Part shown: positions 25,519 to 35,923 of the stretch, piece by piece
Layout: each line of letters starts with the position of its first letter
Numbering within the stretch: position 1 is the first letter of the stretch
Source of the DNA: a virus
Reading direction: 5' to 3' (one strand)
IMG/VR virus record: IMGVR_UViG_3300032116_000032
Location: 1 to 64,000 of that record
Length of the DNA: 64,000 nt
Translations under genes and position numbers: made by a program
The notes under the pieces: generated by a model
Database searches by the model: none
Told to the model about the DNA's origin: nothing
The model's input: only the letters and a program-made list of their open reading frames with translations

Positions 25519-26646
25519 TTAAATTACATATATCTGACGAGGCATAGCTCTAAACTTAAGAGTTTTGTTTAAGTTTTCTGCTAGTAAAGCTTCTCTTTCC
25601 ATAACTTTTTCAGGACGAAGTCTTGTTAATCTTCCTTCAGCTCCGATCAATTCTTCTATTAGTTTAGCCTTTTCATCTTTTCCTTCAGTACCTAATGTTG
25701 CATAATCCATAGTTAAGTCACCATCAGGAGTCTTTAAGTTACCACTAAATTTACCACGAACTCTTGCTAAAGTTTCTTTACAGTATGCTATAAACCATCT
25801 ACGAACCCAAACTTGTGCAGGATTATTTAGTTTGTACCAACTTATCTTATTGAATGGTACATCTGAAGGTAAAAGAACAATATCAGGATTATCCGCCAAA
25901 CATTTGTCTCTATCACCTTGTGAAGTATCATAATACCAATACCAAACTTGACCTTTTGCCAACTCCGCATTACCAAAGTCAAATTTACCACCTGGTGTGT
26001 TTAAAAGGTGTAGTGCTTTTTTACCACCAGGAAGTGCAGTGATATAATAAGTCAAATCACCCGCAAATATTCTTCTTTGGATATTAACTTCTTGCATTCT
26101 TAATAATGTATCAAATGCTGGTGTTAAATAATAACTTCCTGCCATATTACCAATTTGTGCAAGCCCTCCACCACCACCAAGTCCAGTTCCATTACCAACA
26201 CCCGCAAAACCACCCAAACCAAACATTAAGTTGTTTAATGTTGATGGGGTAAACCATAATACTTCATTTATCTCACGACCTGCAGGTATTTCATAAATCT
26301 GTTGGTTGGGTACTAACTGAATATAATCTTTTTTGATTTCCCAATCACCACCTGCTTGTAATCCAACTATTTTTGAATACGCATAGGTATAACGAGTTTC
26401 AAAGTCTAAACTTTTAGTTATGAAAGCTCTTGATAAAGATTGGGTATCTAAATTCAAATTATTTAATGTGGTCCATTGAGATTCAATTAACCAATCTTGG
26501 ACATATTGAGAATAATCGTCAATTGAATATTCTAATAATGTGTCCATCATTTCGTCTTCCAATTCCACAGATCTTAAAGGTGCACCTAATAAGTGTCTAA
26601 CTTTTTGATAGAATTGACTTCTTTCTGGTTCGTCGATTATTGCCAT
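25519..26646 (-). CDS. Neck (head completion) protein, T4 gp13-like
   Basis: A 375-residue protein. The start (FYQKVRHLLGAPLRSVELED, then EMMDTLLEYSIDDYSQYVQD) has the L-G-x-P plus paired-helix pattern of head-closure proteins of T4-like and other phages. A beta domain follows (DYIQLVPNQQIYEIPAGREI). A Gly-rich loop (about 145-165) breaks the middle. A helical C-terminus (AYCKETLARVRGKFSG, then KLIEELIGAEGRLT) follows, and the protein ends near RAMPRQIYVI. T4 gp13 is 309 residues; this one is longer. A TATTTATA box lies 12 bases before its ATG on the minus strand. Assignment rests on pattern and on being close to tail genes. Confidence 0.55.
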   Translation of the reverse strand: MAIIDEPERSQFYQKVRHLLGAPLRSVELEDEMMDTLLEYSIDDYSQYVQDWLIESQWTTLNNLNLDTQSLSRAFITKSLDFETRYTYAYSKIVGLQAGGDWEIKKDYIQLVPNQQIYEIPAGREINEVLWFTPSTLNNLMFGLGGFAGVGNGTGLGGGGGLAQIGNMAGSYYLTPAFDTLLRMQEVNIQRRIFAGDLTYYITALPGGKKALHLLNTPGGKFDFGNAELAKGQVWYWYYDTSQGDRDKCLADNPDIVLLPSDVPFNKISWYKLNNPAQVWVRRWFIAYCKETLARVRGKFSGNLKTPDGDLTMDYATLGTEGKDEKAKLIEELIGAEGRLTRLRPEKVMEREALLAENLNKTLKFRAMPRQIYVI

Positions 26647-26686: not shown

Positions 26687-28882
26687 TTAGATGGGGCAAA
26701 TGATCTTTTCTCTATCTTTAGATTTGACAGTCAAAGTGGTAGACTCTAAGGTGTTTTTGTCTTTGAAAAAGAATCCATTAATTTTGTCGTATTCAGGTTT
26801 TATTCTAAATCTTATTGATAATCTTTTTTCATCACAACCTCGTTGACCTTTGTTGGACCAATATAAATCTATATATTCAATAGGAACAATTAAGTCACCT
26901 TCATAAATTATACCTGACATTTTGCTTTTAACCTTATTTAAGTACTCCTCAGCTGAAGGTTTACTATTTAACCAAGTGTATAATTTATCTATCAATTCAT
27001 TATATAATTTTATGTATATTGGTTTTTCACTTGATAATGAAGATTGTTTAAATATAGAAAAGAACTCAGACAAATAACTATCAATGAATGGGTCCATTTT
27101 TTTAACCTCAAAAAGTGAATTAGTAGGAAATATTGTATTACCATCCTCATCTTTTAGTTCTTGTTTAGTTATTAAATCCGCTTTGATATAATAACTACCA
27201 CTTTTGAATGACTTAGATAAACAAGAAGTTATTTGAAAAAAAGTATAGTTTAAACTTTCAGTACCTGAATGGATTTTTTTCAAAAGGTCAATTAATGTTT
27301 CTTTTGCATCATCAGAACACTTATAATTCAATTGTAGTTTTGTTTGGTTTTTTTCAAAATAATCACCAACAAATCTATCTTCATATTTACTGTGTTCTTT
27401 TTGTCTTGCATATGCTAACAATCCTTCAATATCATTTGGTATTGTTGTTACGTACCTTTGTTTATTTAGTATTTTTTTAACTTGGTCATCCTCAAATTCT
27501 TTATCAACAATGAAGTCCGATACTAATTCTAAAAAGTTTACAGTTCTATTTGTGTCTTGGAGAGCCAATTGAATTATCACAGGAAATGTACCGACATTTT
27601 TTTTGCCAAAAAATTGGTCTAGTATAAAAATTGATCTTTCTAATTCATGAATCAAATATTGATCTTCTAAACCATCTCTAAAATTTTTTAATTGACAATA
27701 TGGTGATTTTTCAGATTTTGATTGTACACATAAATAATCTATTTTAGAACTTCTTCTAAGAGCAATTTCATTTATTTCTTCAGATTCATTAAGTTTTTTT
27801 TTTGATGTTCTACTCACAAATAAATCATTAACAAATTCCCAATTAACAACATCCCAAAACTTTTTAATATATTCATCACGTTTGTTTTGATATTTCAAAT
27901 AGTAAGCGTGTTCCCAAACGTCCAAACCTAACAGAGGATACCCACCTTTTTTAACTATGTTCATCAATGGATTATCTTGATTTGGTGTAGACATAATCTT
28001 CAAATTACCTTCACTGTTAAGATACAACCAAGCCCATCCTGAACCAAAACGATCCTGAGCGGCTTTGTTAAACTCATCCTTCATTTTTTTTATGTTACCA
28101 AAATCTTTTTTAATTTTTTTCAAAATTTCTCCTCTTGGGAGTTGTTTTTTTGGGGACAACATCTTCCAAAATAATGCATGATTAAATGCTCCACCAGCAT
28201 TATTTCTAACCTTATTGTCAAATTTACTTATAGTTCTTACAATATCCTCTAACTCCAAATCACCATCAATGTCTTTGATTGCTTTATTCAATTTATCAAC
28301 ATATCCTTTGTAGTGTTTATTGTAATGAATATTCATAGTTTTTGAATCTATAAATCTATTCAAAGAAGAATATGAGTAAGGTAACTTTTCAATACCAATT
28401 GATTTCATTTCAGAAATCAAATTTTTTTTGATTAATTGTTTTTCGTTTAATAAAATTTGTTCAGATAGAAGACTAACTTTTCCTTCGATTCCTTTATGTT
28501 CATACATCAGTTCTTCAAGTTCAGGATATTTTTTTTCAAATTTTTTAACAATCTGTCCCGCAAATGCATTTGCTTCGTCTTCATTAATACCACCAATGTT
28601 AGGTCCGTGTTCTCTACCAAGAATTGTCATTTGATATTCATGAACCCATTCATGGGCTAATGTTCTCATGATGTCACGATTTAATCTTCCTTTAGCAAGA
28701 ACTTTAATTAGGTGATCACCTCTTCTACTACCTGTAGACATCTCACCTTTTCTACCATTTAAAAACATAATTTTTAAATCATTTTTAAGTGGGTATTCTT
28801 CTTGTAGTAAAGAAATAAACTTTTTAACAAAGTCTTTTCGATTTTTAATATCGGGATTTTCGTATTTGATAGAAACTTTCAT
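26687..28882 (-). CDS. Fusion of an HExxH metallopeptidase-like domain, a Mn/Fe superoxide dismutase and a novel C-terminal region
   Basis: A 731-residue protein. Residues about 1-125 hold HEWVH (77-81) with a following GINEDEANAF (98-107), a zinc-metallopeptidase-like site. Residues about 165-357 are a full Mn/Fe superoxide dismutase: LPYSYSSLNRFIDSKTMNIH, NNAGGAFNHALFW, GSGWAWLYLNSEG, STPNQDNPLM and GLDVWEHAYYLKYQNKR. The metal ligands His186, His235, Asp321 and His325 are present, as are His190 and Tyr194 of the active site. Gly in NNAGG together with Gln302 is the Mn-type pattern. Residues 358-731 match nothing I know. It is transcribed with a TATTTATC box like virion genes, so it may be packaged or assembled with the virion. 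SOD would remove superoxide; the peptidase might mature proteins. Confidence 0.85.
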   Translation of the reverse strand: MKVSIKYENPDIKNRKDFVKKFISLLQEEYPLKNDLKIMFLNGRKGEMSTGSRRGDHLIKVLAKGRLNRDIMRTLAHEWVHEYQMTILGREHGPNIGGINEDEANAFAGQIVKKFEKKYPELEELMYEHKGIEGKVSLLSEQILLNEKQLIKKNLISEMKSIGIEKLPYSYSSLNRFIDSKTMNIHYNKHYKGYVDKLNKAIKDIDGDLELEDIVRTISKFDNKVRNNAGGAFNHALFWKMLSPKKQLPRGEILKKIKKDFGNIKKMKDEFNKAAQDRFGSGWAWLYLNSEGNLKIMSTPNQDNPLMNIVKKGGYPLLGLDVWEHAYYLKYQNKRDEYIKKFWDVVNWEFVNDLFVSRTSKKKLNESEEINEIALRRSSKIDYLCVQSKSEKSPYCQLKNFRDGLEDQYLIHELERSIFILDQFFGKKNVGTFPVIIQLALQDTNRTVNFLELVSDFIVDKEFEDDQVKKILNKQRYVTTIPNDIEGLLAYARQKEHSKYEDRFVGDYFEKNQTKLQLNYKCSDDAKETLIDLLKKIHSGTESLNYTFFQITSCLSKSFKSGSYYIKADLITKQELKDEDGNTIFPTNSLFEVKKMDPFIDSYLSEFFSIFKQSSLSSEKPIYIKLYNELIDKLYTWLNSKPSAEEYLNKVKSKMSGIIYEGDLIVPIEYIDLYWSNKGQRGCDEKRLSIRFRIKPEYDKINGFFFKDKNTLESTTLTVKSKDREKIICPI

Positions 28883-28911: not shown

Positions 28912-30678
28912 TTATCGTCTATTGTTAATTAGGTTTAATATTTCTTCAACAATGTCACCTGTGTTTTCTACAATACCATCACCCATTACGGTTCTAATGA
29001 TTTCTTTTTTACGATTAAGGATGTCATAAATTGCACCTTCAATCGTATTTTCAAACAGTGGATAATAAACCAATACGTTTGATTTCTGACCATATCGATA
29101 AGCTCTATCTTCAGCTTGGGCGTGTTCTGCAGGAACAAAAGATAAATCGTTCATAATCACAGCTTCTGCAGATGTTAAAGTTAAACCAACTCCTGCCGCT
29201 TTTAGGTTACCAACAAAAACTTTGACTTTATCGTCATTTTGAAATTGGTCGACAGCTTGTTGACGAATTGCATTAGAACAACTACCATCGAGATAAACCG
29301 CTTGTTTTTCAAAATGTTGGTATATGGTTTGGAGTGTGTCTGTAAAGTTTGTGAATATTATAACTTTCTTACCTTGATCAATGATATTTTCAGCAAACTC
29401 AATTGTTTGTTTTGTTTTTTCATTCGCAATTACTTTTCTAACTTTCATTAGTTTAGAAAACTGAACCGTTAAAGATGAAGACTCATCGGGGTTTTTATCA
29501 TACCAATCAAAATATTCACCCATTAAATCCTCATACTCTTTTGATTTTAATCTTAGGTAAACAGGAGTGATAATTTTATCTGGTAAGTCTAAAACATCTT
29601 CTTTTAATCTACGAAGAATTTGTTTTGATGTCCTATCTCTTAATTCTTCAAGATTAGATGCACCTGAAACATTCCACACTTTTCTTTTACCTGCTGTAAA
29701 TTGAAACCCTTGACAATACCTAATCGCATAAGCCTTCCAATTCTGAGCAACAGAACTTTCAATTAGATTTAACAAATTATAATAATTCATTGGTCGAGAA
29801 GTCATTGGTGTTCCTGTTAACAACCAAACTCTATCTATTTTTTTTGCAAAACTATTAATAATCTTTGTTCTTTGTGCCTGAACATTTGATATCATGTGAG
29901 CTTCATCTAAGATTACCAAATCAAATCCACTTTTTAATAATAGAGACTCATCCTTTTTTTTCGGATCTGAGTCGTGAAAATTTTTAAGAATGTCATAATT
30001 AACAATGACAAAATCATCTTCAGTTGAAAATTTTTTACCTTCCGCAATAAAAACAGGTCTATCTGAATAATTTGCAATTTCTCTTTGCCAATTTATTTTT
30101 AAAGATGCGGGACAAACAATTAATATTTTTTTTGCACCTGTCTCTAATGCTGCAATAATAGTTGAGGTTGTTTTACCAAGACCCATATCATCAGCAAGAA
30201 TAAATCTTTTTGATCCTGCTAATTTTTCGATTGCAATTTTTTGATGATCAAGCGGAGGACGATGGGAATATTTCGAATAATCAATACTAACAGACTGTAC
30301 ATTATGTGTTTTAATTAAAGCCGATTTTGGAATCCAAAATTCGGATAGTTTATCCTTCTCAAAAAACTTACCCCAAACGTGATAAGACTTTTCCTTCTCA
30401 ACCAAAAGCTTTTCAATAAAAATTTCCTTTGGTACCTCAATAAGATATTTTTCTTCAGCAAACTTTTTGGCAAAGTAGTTGTCTAACTCGACCCATTTAC
30501 GAGCAATCTTAGGCGTTGAGTCGTAATATGTTGTAATATATTCGGATTGACTTCTAGTGGGATAAAATTTACTAGAAACTTCTTTTTTATGTTTTAGATA
30601 TAGTATATAATTATTCGCACCACTATAACTTTCGAGCAACTCTAATGCTTTATGTTCTATCAGTGTTTTTGTTTCCAA
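28912..30678 (-). CDS. SNF2-family DEAH helicase/translocase
   Basis: A 588-residue superfamily 2 ATPase of the SNF2 type. Motif I is DDMGLGKTT (about 168-176), motif Ia ILIVCPASLKINWQ, motif II LVILDEAHMISN (about 255-266), motif III WLLTGTPMTSRP, motif V KAAGVGLTLTSAEAVIMNDL, and motif VI with QAEDRAYRYGQ. A N-terminal extension of about 140 residues resembles the HARP-like part of SMARCAL1-type annealing helicases, but weakly. T4 encodes UvsW, a different SF2 helicase with a similar role in recombination and fork repair; this protein may serve that purpose. It is divergent from the structural operon at 30735 and ends 29 bases before the SOD fusion gene. Confidence 0.85.
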   Translation of the reverse strand: METKTLIEHKALELLESYSGANNYILYLKHKKEVSSKFYPTRSQSEYITTYYDSTPKIARKWVELDNYFAKKFAEEKYLIEVPKEIFIEKLLVEKEKSYHVWGKFFEKDKLSEFWIPKSALIKTHNVQSVSIDYSKYSHRPPLDHQKIAIEKLAGSKRFILADDMGLGKTTSTIIAALETGAKKILIVCPASLKINWQREIANYSDRPVFIAEGKKFSTEDDFVIVNYDILKNFHDSDPKKKDESLLLKSGFDLVILDEAHMISNVQAQRTKIINSFAKKIDRVWLLTGTPMTSRPMNYYNLLNLIESSVAQNWKAYAIRYCQGFQFTAGKRKVWNVSGASNLEELRDRTSKQILRRLKEDVLDLPDKIITPVYLRLKSKEYEDLMGEYFDWYDKNPDESSSLTVQFSKLMKVRKVIANEKTKQTIEFAENIIDQGKKVIIFTNFTDTLQTIYQHFEKQAVYLDGSCSNAIRQQAVDQFQNDDKVKVFVGNLKAAGVGLTLTSAEAVIMNDLSFVPAEHAQAEDRAYRYGQKSNVLVYYPLFENTIEGAIYDILNRKKEIIRTVMGDGIVENTGDIVEEILNLINNRR

Positions 30679-32572: not shown

Positions 32573-35500
32573 ATGGCAACAAACAGTAAAGTTTTCGTTT
32601 CACCTGGTGTTTATACTTCTGAAGTAGATTTGAGCTTTGTTGCTCAAAGCGTCGGGGTAACAACATTAGGTATCGTAGGTGAAACTTTGATAGGTCCAGC
32701 TTTTGAACCGATTTTTATTACAAATTTTGATGAATTCCAAACAGTATTTGGAGGTACTTCACCAGAAAAATTTGTTAATACCCAAATTCCAAAGTATGAA
32801 GCGGCTTACATTGCAAAAGCATATCTACAACAATCCAATCAATTATTCGTAACAAGAATCTTAGGATTATCAGGTTACGATGCAGGACCATCTTGGTCAA
32901 TAACTACGGTTGCTAACGTAGATCCATCAACAATTGGTGTTTGGTGTCTAAGTTCAGTAACTAATTCGGCAACTTGTGTTACAACATGTGTAGTTCCAAA
33001 AGAACTCACATTTACAGTTCCGTTTACTGCTTGTACTAATTCAACAACAACAATAGGTTTCCAAGGAAGCTTCCCTTCAATTATTCAAGACATAATTACA
33101 GAACAATATGAAGAGTTTAACGGAGATACTTCTACATTAGAAACTCAAATTAATAATTTAATTTTTGATGTTATCACAAGTAACAATCCTTATCTTGCGG
33201 AAGATGAACAAATTGCTTACTTTGGTTCTATTGCTACTGACGACTATAACACATTAAATGGTGCTGGTTGGACAGCGGGAACTAATGTATTTAATGTTCC
33301 ATCTGTATCGTTTGATGCCACTGATTTAACTTCTCCTTTGAATGATTCTTGGTACTATGCGTTATTTACAAATACAGGTAATACAAATTACTCAGGATAT
33401 TCATTCTCTACTTTGGTGTCAGGTTTAACGGCTTATTATCCAAACCCAACTCCTACACCACAAGCATCATCATCACCAACACCTACACCATCGGCAGCTA
33501 ATCCTTGTATTACACCGTCACCTTTTGTGTCACCTACACCTACTCCTACACCTGTTAATATTGATTGTTATTCAGGAACTATTGTTGGTAAAATTTATTA
33601 CTACACAGGGACATCATATGTTGATTACGATAATGTAGTTGTTGCAACTTTAAGATCAAGAGGTATTGCAACTTATACAAACTCAACTAACCCAGCATAC
33701 TCAGTAACGGCAACAACAGATGCTAGTTTAGATATGACAGGAAAATATGCTGGAGTTCTTAAAAACCCATACTTGACATTTGCGGTTAATTGTACTGATA
33801 AATTTGGTCAAAACTTTACGTTTGAAACTTCTTTAACTCAAAATGATCCTGAGTATATTAGTAAAGTGTTTGGGATTGCAAACTTCCAAAAACCAAGAAT
33901 TGAAGTTCCATTATTTAATGAGGAAGTATTCCAATCTTGGTTAAACTACTCTTGGAAAAAAGGATACGTTAGAGGTTTAAATCCAAACTTTATTGAATTA
34001 GACTCTGCTCAAAGTGGTGACCCTAACTCAATTGGATGGTATTTGGACAGATATCAAACGCCTAATTCTCCTTGGGTTGTATCAGAATTAAGAGGTAATA
34101 AAGTTTATGACCTATTCAGGTTCTACACAATTTCTGATGGTGATGCCGCTAACACGTTAATTAAAGTTTCACTTATCAATCAAACTTATAACAACTTAAC
34201 GTTTGATGTATTGATTCGTGACTATTTTGATACTGATGCAAACCCTGTAGTTCTTGAGAAATTTACAAACTGTACAATGGATCCAGGACAAAACAACTTT
34301 ATTGCAAATAAAATTGGTACATTGGATGGAGAATACGCACTGAATTCTAAATACGTAATGGTTGAAATGAACGAGGATGCCCCAATTGACGCACTTCCTT
34401 GTGGATTCAACGGATTTAACTTCAGAAATTATGCAGGAGCTCAATCACCATTCCCAATTATTAAAGGTAAATATGATTTCCCTGGCGAAGTAATTTATAA
34501 CCCACCATTTGGTTTGTCTTCAGGTAATGATGATGCGTTGGTAAGTCCGGGAGATAATGTTAGAAGAACATACTTAGGTATATCTAACAATTTAGGATGG
34601 GATGCCGCTTACTTCGAATACGTTGGTAAGAGAAATCCTAATAATACTTGTGATATTGATGGTTTACCATTCAACTACAGATCTGCAGGTTTCCACATGG
34701 ACGTAAATGCAAGTGGTTTAACAATCGGGCCTGAGTTCTCGACGAGTGGTGACCCAAGATTTATCTGTGGTAACTCACCATTCATCACTGAACCTGAACT
34801 TCCAACAAACGCATACTATAGATTGTTCGCACGTAAATTCACATTCTTAGTACAAGGTGGATTTGACGGATGGGATATCTACAGAGAATGGAGAACTAAC
34901 GAAGATAGATTCCAAATCGGTAGAACAGGATTCCTATTCGGAGCTTGTCCATCTACAAGATACCCACAAGCAACAGGTTGGGGAGCGTTTAAAGAAATTT
35001 CTTTAGGTGACGGAACTCAGAATTGGGCAAATACCGACTACTATGCATACTTGTTAGGTCAACAAACATTTGCAAACCCTGAGGCGGTTAACATTAACGT
35101 GTTTGTAACACCGGGTATTGATTATGTAAATAACAGTAACCTTGTAGAAGATGCGGTTAATATGATTGAATTCAACAGAGCGGACTCATTATACATTTGT
35201 ACAACTCCTGACGTTGATATGTATGTTGCAACTACAACAGGGATTGATGTATTTATCTACCCAACAGAAGCAGTTGACAACTTAGAGAATACAGGAATTG
35301 ACTCTAACTACACGGCTACTTACTATCCGTGGGTATTGACAAGAGATAGTGTAAATAACACTCAAATCTATATCCCACCAACAGCTGAAGTAACAAGAAA
35401 CTTAGCGTTGACAGATAACATCGCGTTCCCTTGGTTCGCTGCGGCGGGTTACACTCGTGGTATTGTTAACTGTATTAAAGCTCGTAAGAAGTTAACTCAA

Positions 35501-35923
35501 GAAGATAGAGACATCCTTTACGTAGGTAGACTTAACCCAATCGCAACCTTCTCTGATGTCGGTACCGTAATTTGGGGTAACAAAACTCTACAAGTAAGAG
35601 AATCGGCTCTTGACAGAATCAACGTTAGAAGATTGTTGTTACAAGCTCGTAAATTGATTTCAGCAGTTTCTGTAAGACTATTGTTTGAACAAAACGACTC
35701 ACAAGTAAGACAAGACTTCTTAAATGCTGTTAACCCAATCTTAGATGCAATCAGAAGAGATCGTGGTTTATATGACTTCCGAGTTACAGTTTCTTCAGAT
35801 CCTGAGGATTTAGATAGAAACCAAATGACAGGTAAGATTTATATCAAACCAACAAGATCACTTGAATTTATCGACATTACATTCTATATCACTCCAACAG
35901 GAGCATCGTTTGAGAATATATAA
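32573..35923 (+). CDS. 18: Contractile tail sheath protein (T4 gp18-like) with an exposed Pro/Thr insertion
   Basis: A 1116-residue sheath, against 659 in T4. The N-terminus FVSPGVYTSEVDLSFVAQSV is the standard sheath start (P-G-V-Y-x-x-E). The C-terminal third (TAEVTRNLALTDNIAFPWFA, then AARKLISA-like segment LLLQARKLISAVSVRLLFEQ and TGKIYIKPTRSLEFIDITFY) is the conserved core and assembly arm. The extra length is in the middle: a large insertion that includes a linker of PTPTP and SPTPTP units with a Cys pair (about residues 290-330). The core folds would remain continuous around it, so the insertion should lie on the outside of the tail. A TATTTATA box precedes it and an intrinsic terminator follows. 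The late codons are well adapted, consistent with high expression. Confidence 0.9.
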   Translation: MATNSKVFVSPGVYTSEVDLSFVAQSVGVTTLGIVGETLIGPAFEPIFITNFDEFQTVFGGTSPEKFVNTQIPKYEAAYIAKAYLQQSNQLFVTRILGLSGYDAGPSWSITTVANVDPSTIGVWCLSSVTNSATCVTTCVVPKELTFTVPFTACTNSTTTIGFQGSFPSIIQDIITEQYEEFNGDTSTLETQINNLIFDVITSNNPYLAEDEQIAYFGSIATDDYNTLNGAGWTAGTNVFNVPSVSFDATDLTSPLNDSWYYALFTNTGNTNYSGYSFSTLVSGLTAYYPNPTPTPQASSSPTPTPSAANPCITPSPFVSPTPTPTPVNIDCYSGTIVGKIYYYTGTSYVDYDNVVVATLRSRGIATYTNSTNPAYSVTATTDASLDMTGKYAGVLKNPYLTFAVNCTDKFGQNFTFETSLTQNDPEYISKVFGIANFQKPRIEVPLFNEEVFQSWLNYSWKKGYVRGLNPNFIELDSAQSGDPNSIGWYLDRYQTPNSPWVVSELRGNKVYDLFRFYTISDGDAANTLIKVSLINQTYNNLTFDVLIRDYFDTDANPVVLEKFTNCTMDPGQNNFIANKIGTLDGEYALNSKYVMVEMNEDAPIDALPCGFNGFNFRNYAGAQSPFPIIKGKYDFPGEVIYNPPFGLSSGNDDALVSPGDNVRRTYLGISNNLGWDAAYFEYVGKRNPNNTCDIDGLPFNYRSAGFHMDVNASGLTIGPEFSTSGDPRFICGNSPFITEPELPTNAYYRLFARKFTFLVQGGFDGWDIYREWRTNEDRFQIGRTGFLFGACPSTRYPQATGWGAFKEISLGDGTQNWANTDYYAYLLGQQTFANPEAVNINVFVTPGIDYVNNSNLVEDAVNMIEFNRADSLYICTTPDVDMYVATTTGIDVFIYPTEAVDNLENTGIDSNYTATYYPWVLTRDSVNNTQIYIPPTAEVTRNLALTDNIAFPWFAAAGYTRGIVNCIKARKKLTQEDRDILYVGRLNPIATFSDVGTVIWGNKTLQVRESALDRINVRRLLLQARKLISAVSVRLLFEQNDSQVRQDFLNAVNPILDAIRRDRGLYDFRVTVSSDPEDLDRNQMTGKIYIKPTRSLEFIDITFYITPTGASFENI

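Follow-up and report, generated by a model that had tools for sequence, protein, structure and literature searches.

The T4 prohead protease gp21 cleaves after L/I-X-E, and short propeptides at the N-terminus direct T4 internal proteins to the head (PMC9026906); the long propeptides of SPN3US are cleaved at several motifs (PMC10052503). A virion-borne superoxide dismutase (SOD) has been described for PBCV-1, where the Cu/Zn-SOD A245R is encoded by a late gene, packaged into the virion and linked to lower superoxide in infected cells (PMC7019647), and a freshwater survey proposed a phage-mediated defence of the infected cell against reactive oxygen species (ROS; PMC6802176). The component ideas of the model put forward here are already known from T4 internal proteins, polyvalent proteins and the virion SOD of PBCV-1. 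Here, we analyzed a gene on the minus strand of a 64,000-nt window (positions 1 to 64,000 of IMG/VR virus record IMGVR_UViG_3300032116_000032), which is part of a 136-kb virus contig (G000) that may itself be a fragment. The gene encodes a 731-amino-acid (aa) protein composed of a zincin-like domain, an Mn-type SOD and a C-terminal module, C1, which are separated by two linkers. A preliminary description made from the sequence alone had given this open reading frame (ORF) the same layout, which we recovered exactly, and had named no described protein with this domain order; likewise, the literature searched, from which most subscription papers were absent, contained no description of a zincin-SOD-C order. 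On balance, we favor the view that the protein is a late, head-packaged polyprotein of a T4-related phage, which would be cut by a gp21-type protease and injected at infection.

The SOD and its fusion to the other domains are certain. Pfam searches assigned residues 165–353 to Sod_Fe_N (PF00081, 3e-21) and Sod_Fe_C (PF02777, 7e-41), placing the stretch predicted earlier (165–357) in the SOD families. The domain also matches NCBI MnSODs, and its top PDB sequence match is the MnSOD 6gsc (1e-64). All four metal ligands (His186, His235, Asp321, and His325) as well as His190, Tyr194, and Gln302, which had been read as a full SOD domain in the preliminary description, are identical in 88/88 relatives, as is Glu324. 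The invariant Gln302 is a sequence signature of the Mn type, from which the metal preference is predicted. The median ratio of non-synonymous to synonymous substitution rates (dN/dS) is 0.11 for the SOD, compared to 0.26 for the zincin-like domain, 0.27 for C1, and 0.41 for linker 1. Together, the sequence data support a complete SOD under strong purifying selection, and we infer that it is enzymatically active. In a phylogenetic tree, the phage SODs group into a single clade (100/100 support) that excludes the retrieved SODs, most of them from Bacteroidota.

Relatives were gathered by three viral-contig scans with separate protein parts, followed by profile scans. The resulting 192 distinct domain-bearing ORFs, a count that includes a small number of loci from outgroup phages and one or more broken genes (e.g., L142), comprise 107 zincin-SOD, 28 zincin-SOD-C1, 36 SOD without zincin, 15 zincin alone, and 6 C1 alone. 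A prosegment of ∼36 residues precedes the SOD in all architectures found (SOD alone, SOD plus tail, zincin-SOD, and zincin-SOD-C); it forms the N-terminus of zincin-free SOD proteins and is internal, as linker 1, in the 731-aa protein. In 159 of 167 proteins, with and without zincin, the prosegment ends in L/I-X-E immediately ahead of the SOD; most of the remaining ends read L-V-X-E. Of the 355 columns in the zincin-SOD alignment, L/I-X-E reaches a frequency of 70% or more among the 88 sequences in just three, and all of them are in linker 1; cleavage of long propeptides at several motifs, as in SPN3US, would fit these three sites. Linker 2 has L/I-X-E in 76/76 C-extended proteins versus 44.5 ± 4.2 expected from shuffles, with a motif total of 156 versus 63.7 ± 6.4, a significance that is an upper bound as the relatedness of the sequences is ignored. 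In the AlphaFold2 (AF2) model, linker 2 is disordered, with a predicted local distance difference test score (pLDDT) below 50 over its 20 residues. Moreover, free 129-aa zincin copies stop exactly at the start of linker 1, and an unfused SOD that begins with the prosegment is also encoded at the locus of the fusion. Because SOD and zincin thus also exist as separate genes that start or end at the same boundary, we read the fusion as a precursor that is probably cut into separate proteins.

A protease that could perform such cuts is encoded by related phages. Of 30 related records, 13 encode Peptidase_S77, the gp21 homologue (E 1e-23 to 1e-26), among them G018, which represents the closest lineage, and all four records above 270 kb. 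In three relatives, it belongs to a head module whose other genes resemble those for terminase, portal, scaffold, and gp23 and were named by order, length and sequence resemblance and, in case of the capsid protein, also by isolate matches. The capsid protein of three relatives has the sequence LINE↓A at the position expected for the end of a T4-like propeptide. Among its nearest isolates (41–44% identity) are Flavobacterium phage immuto and Microcystis phage Mel-JY01, so that the assignment to a Bacteroidota host is tentative; the clade probably consists of large freshwater T4-related phages infecting Bacteroidota. A second link to head and tail genes is the sequence TATTTAT, which is located within 45 bases upstream of 54 of the 63 distinct SOD genes (3.2 in shuffles) and also precedes neck, sheath, tube, portal, gp21, scaffold, and terminase genes. 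It may represent a late promoter or expression signal, and late expression of the SOD gene is likely, in agreement with the earlier suggestion that the SOD is made late. The accompanying suggestion that it is carried in the virion gains support of an indirect kind, from the gp21-type motifs at the domain boundaries and from the gp21 homologue in relatives. As also suggested there, the enzyme might serve against the oxidative response of the host or superoxide in the surrounding water.

The zincin-SOD fusion is found in more than 130 distinct ORFs on many contigs and at one syntenic locus. An assembly artefact, raised in the preliminary description, is therefore rejected: the same fusion is present in dozens of related phage contigs with a single synteny. 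The zincin label requires at least four changes on the tree, indicating that the domain was gained or lost repeatedly. At the loci with context, which cover dozens of contigs, the SOD gene lies between genes for an SNF2 helicase and a neck protein, the latter directly downstream in 56 of the 61 listed loci. The location in a virion-gene block, as proposed before, is thus half right, since the neck gene is adjacent but the short minus-strand block is shared with the SNF2 helicase, beyond which DNA polymerase follows. This neighborhood and the shared upstream element could point to an SOD that is built into the neck or tail and, exposed on the surface of the particle, would scavenge superoxide in water. 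Such a role appears highly improbable to us, as the gene also adjoins helicase and polymerase, the protein is without a tail or neck domain, and the prosegment bears a head-protease motif. In some relatives, the SNF2 helicase encoded ahead of the SOD has an inserted LAGLIDADG homing endonuclease (L042:4442–7477 and L030:4163–7069, the latter with a Hint match), an insert that by its sequence is an intein. Further along the window, a 1116-aa tail sheath protein (32573–35923) has a long N-terminal region with Pro-Thr-rich stretches, and known sheaths match its C-terminal part only.

At the N-terminus, the HEWVH motif (residues 77–81) and the acidic stretch downstream of it were borne out by the alignment of 53 relatives, in which H77, E78, H81, E101, and E103 are invariant. 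HExxH and the conserved Glu lie on two successive helices of the AF2 model (pLDDT 87), and Foldseek returned Wss1 as top match (probability 1.00, E 0.009), followed by YbeY-like proteins, an M61 peptidase and IrrE, all at modest E-values. Pfam and PHROG searches with residues 1–160 gave no family above the cut-off; the sub-threshold Pfam matches are often zincins (SprT, M78, M76, and DUF5700) and, being below the cut-off, do not assign the domain to a named family. A chance HEXXH is rejected, since the motif is invariant together with the second-helix Glu and the model is zincin-like. We conclude that this is a divergent zincin-like domain outside the named families, with a predicted peptidase activity. 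Cyanophage S-SRM01 encodes a 132-aa relative. A zincin-like stretch is also present at residues 585–675 of a 907-aa protein of Flavobacterium phage immuto that is annotated as NadR (L294:7132–9855), and a tagged 416-aa protein (MRSIIITENQFRFITE; L192:11021–12271) has HEIKH and is a possible second metalloprotease of the same phage.

The invariant catalytic residues could indicate that the zincin cleaves the polypeptide it is part of, either ahead of packaging or once injected, and thereby frees SOD and C1. This would follow the polyvalent proteins, in which zincin domains are common and have been proposed to act in self-processing or on host proteins, and of which P1 DdrB is processed and packaged (PMC5512222). 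However, the prosegment and its conserved L/I-X-E are found in zincin-free SOD proteins as well, and related phages encode a gp21-type protease, so that we regard self-cleavage as improbable.

The last ∼374 residues had been described as of unknown type, and C1 stays an orphan: searches with residues 360–731 found no family in Pfam or PHROG, and C1 has no match in Pfam, PHROG, NCBIfam, or PADLOC and no PDB fold match. Its one structural match is an uncharacterised marine-phage protein. C1 is also fused to other N-termini in L107, L110, L111, and L112, and in its place after the SOD it can be replaced by the modules A5 and A6, which are mutually related (hhalign E 6e-7). Their common E...D...QxK signature and their relatedness suggest PD-(D/E)XK nucleases; profile searches gave no convincing match to known families or PDB structures. 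C1 carries E144/D212/E235xK237 (module numbering), and its homology to these nuclease-like modules was rejected as hhalign was negative. In L107, L110, L111 (6066–9074), and L112, C1 stands behind a hydrophobic, membrane-like N-terminal domain and the tag LNIILTEKQ; the 1003-aa L111 protein has an HEIQH motif besides C1.

Our model builds on what was observed directly, i.e., the domains and their conservation, synteny and module shuffling, L/I-X-E at the boundaries, the gp21 homologue of relatives, and the shared upstream element. The gene would yield a late polyprotein of internal-head cargo, in which the inter-domain prosegments would act like the capsid-targeting sequences of T4. The gp21-type prohead protease of the phage would cut them after L/I-X-E, so that the capsid would contain the zincin-like protease in free form, an Mn-SOD of native length and the C-terminal module as an effector. 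These proteins would enter the host with the DNA, where the SOD would remove superoxide early in infection and the other modules would act on host targets. Injection and a benefit to the phage are suggested by analogy to T4, polyvalent proteins, and PBCV-1.

Several points weigh against this model. L/I-X-E is a short motif, and the shuffle tests preserve composition but treat related sequences as independent. The predicted cuts are followed by Met, Ile, Gln, or Lys, and the capsid protein site by Ala. Searches of G000 with S77 and gp23 profiles gave no match, a result that is uninformative because control genomes likewise gave none and the 136-kb record may be partial. Finally, linker 1 is predicted as a confident helix (residues 130–161) and not as disordered. 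This helix is also compatible with the main rival to the packaged polyprotein, a late intracellular enzyme, neither packaged nor cut, that shields the infected cell and progeny DNA from superoxide and whose helical prosegment would do no more than pack against the SOD or bring about its oligomerisation. The SODs of other phages occur unfused, and many freshwater phages carry oxidative-stress genes, which have been read as protection of the infected host (PMC6802176); the ROS-defence proposal is compatible with an unpackaged enzyme. We nevertheless hold this explanation to be rather unlikely, since it accounts neither for the conservation of L/I-X-E at both boundaries, zincin-free SODs included, nor for the swapping of modules at exactly these boundaries.

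Short N-terminal tags on other proteins might extend the packaged-cargo model. A crude count of L/I-X-E near all N-termini revealed weak enrichment (z 4.7 in G001 and 2.0 in G000). Far clearer are tag patterns, written after inspection of the sequences, which match 31 of 279 G001 genes versus 1 reversed control and 0 internal control segments. Short G001 proteins (loci L279–L293) often start with MKIIITEEQYxxLxE, MKRIIRLTESDLxRIVKRVINEE, or MKELIRHILKEE, and the same kind of tag is seen in G000 at 113719–115560 and 132021–133271. These are possible capsid-targeting tags. Tentatively, and with less confidence than for the single gene, we propose that in this clade of Bacteroidota phages the prohead protease would turn swappable polyproteins into injected sets of metalloprotease, SOD, and nuclease-like or orphan effectors, an L/I-X-E-tagged cargo system that would supply an antioxidant at the start of infection. 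If this holds, the maturation of the capsid would at the same time process a modular set of injected enzymes, and superoxide would pose a genuine obstacle early in the infection of these hosts. Prosegment and short tags would also provide a signature by which head cargo could be searched for in a large group of freshwater phages.

Table. Features of the polyprotein gene and its neighbors (coordinates refer to the window).
Feature	Coordinates	Strand	Remarks
Whole gene, 731-aa zincin/SOD/C1 polyprotein	26687..28882	(-)	Stop codon 26687-26689
Zincin-like domain, residues 1-128	28499..28882	(-)	HEWVH 77-81; Glu101/Glu103; AF2, Foldseek, standalone homologues
Linker 1 (prosegment), residues 129-163	28394..28498	(-)	L/I-X-E at 139-141, 145-147, 156-158
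Mn-type SOD domain, residues 164-357	27812..28393	(-)	Pfam, NCBI, and PDB matches, conservation, dN/dS, tree
Linker 2, residues 358-377	27752..27811	(-)	LNE 364-366, INE 370-372; low pLDDT
C1 module, residues 378-731, orphan phage domain	26690..27751	(-)	Without Pfam, PHROG, or PDB fold match
TATTTAT element just 5' of the start codon	28888..28894	(-)	Putative late promoter or expression signal
Neck/head-tail adaptor protein, downstream neighbor	25519..26646	(-)	PHROG 211, 5.5e-9; synteny
SNF2-type helicase, upstream neighbor	28912..30678	(-)	PF00176, PHROG 62; synteny

Compared to known systems, the phage SOD resembles cellular Fe/Mn SODs (Bacteroidota MnSODs; PDB 6gsc and 5a9g) in both Pfam domains, the ligands, the second-shell residues, and Gln302, and its closest cellular counterparts, mostly from Bacteroidota, share ∼47–57% identity with it. 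In contrast to these, the phage proteins form a separate clade and bear the ∼36-aa prosegment and extra domains. The SODs of Vibrio phage 2.275.O and the Pseudomonas PA5oct group likewise match Fe/Mn SODs but are only 27–30% identical, and the annotated 2.275.O gene encodes a single ∼190-aa domain amid metabolic genes, unlike the fusion described here. A245R of PBCV-1 belongs to an unrelated enzyme family, comes from an algal virus, and no polyprotein is known to contain it.

Polyvalent proteins (Iyer et al. 2017, PMC5512222) are likewise multi-domain proteins with zincins that are thought to enter the host with the DNA; their description makes no mention of superoxide dismutase, and the processing sites of our protein resemble those of prohead proteases. 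The T4 internal head proteins (IPI-III and Alt) share with it a short prosegment ending in L/I-X-E, a gp21-type protease, encoded here by relatives, and a cargo that possibly enters the host with the DNA. However, whereas T4 cargo proteins are encoded by separate genes with one N-terminal propeptide each, the candidate sites described here also lie between the domains of a polyprotein, and the putative cargo is an SOD.
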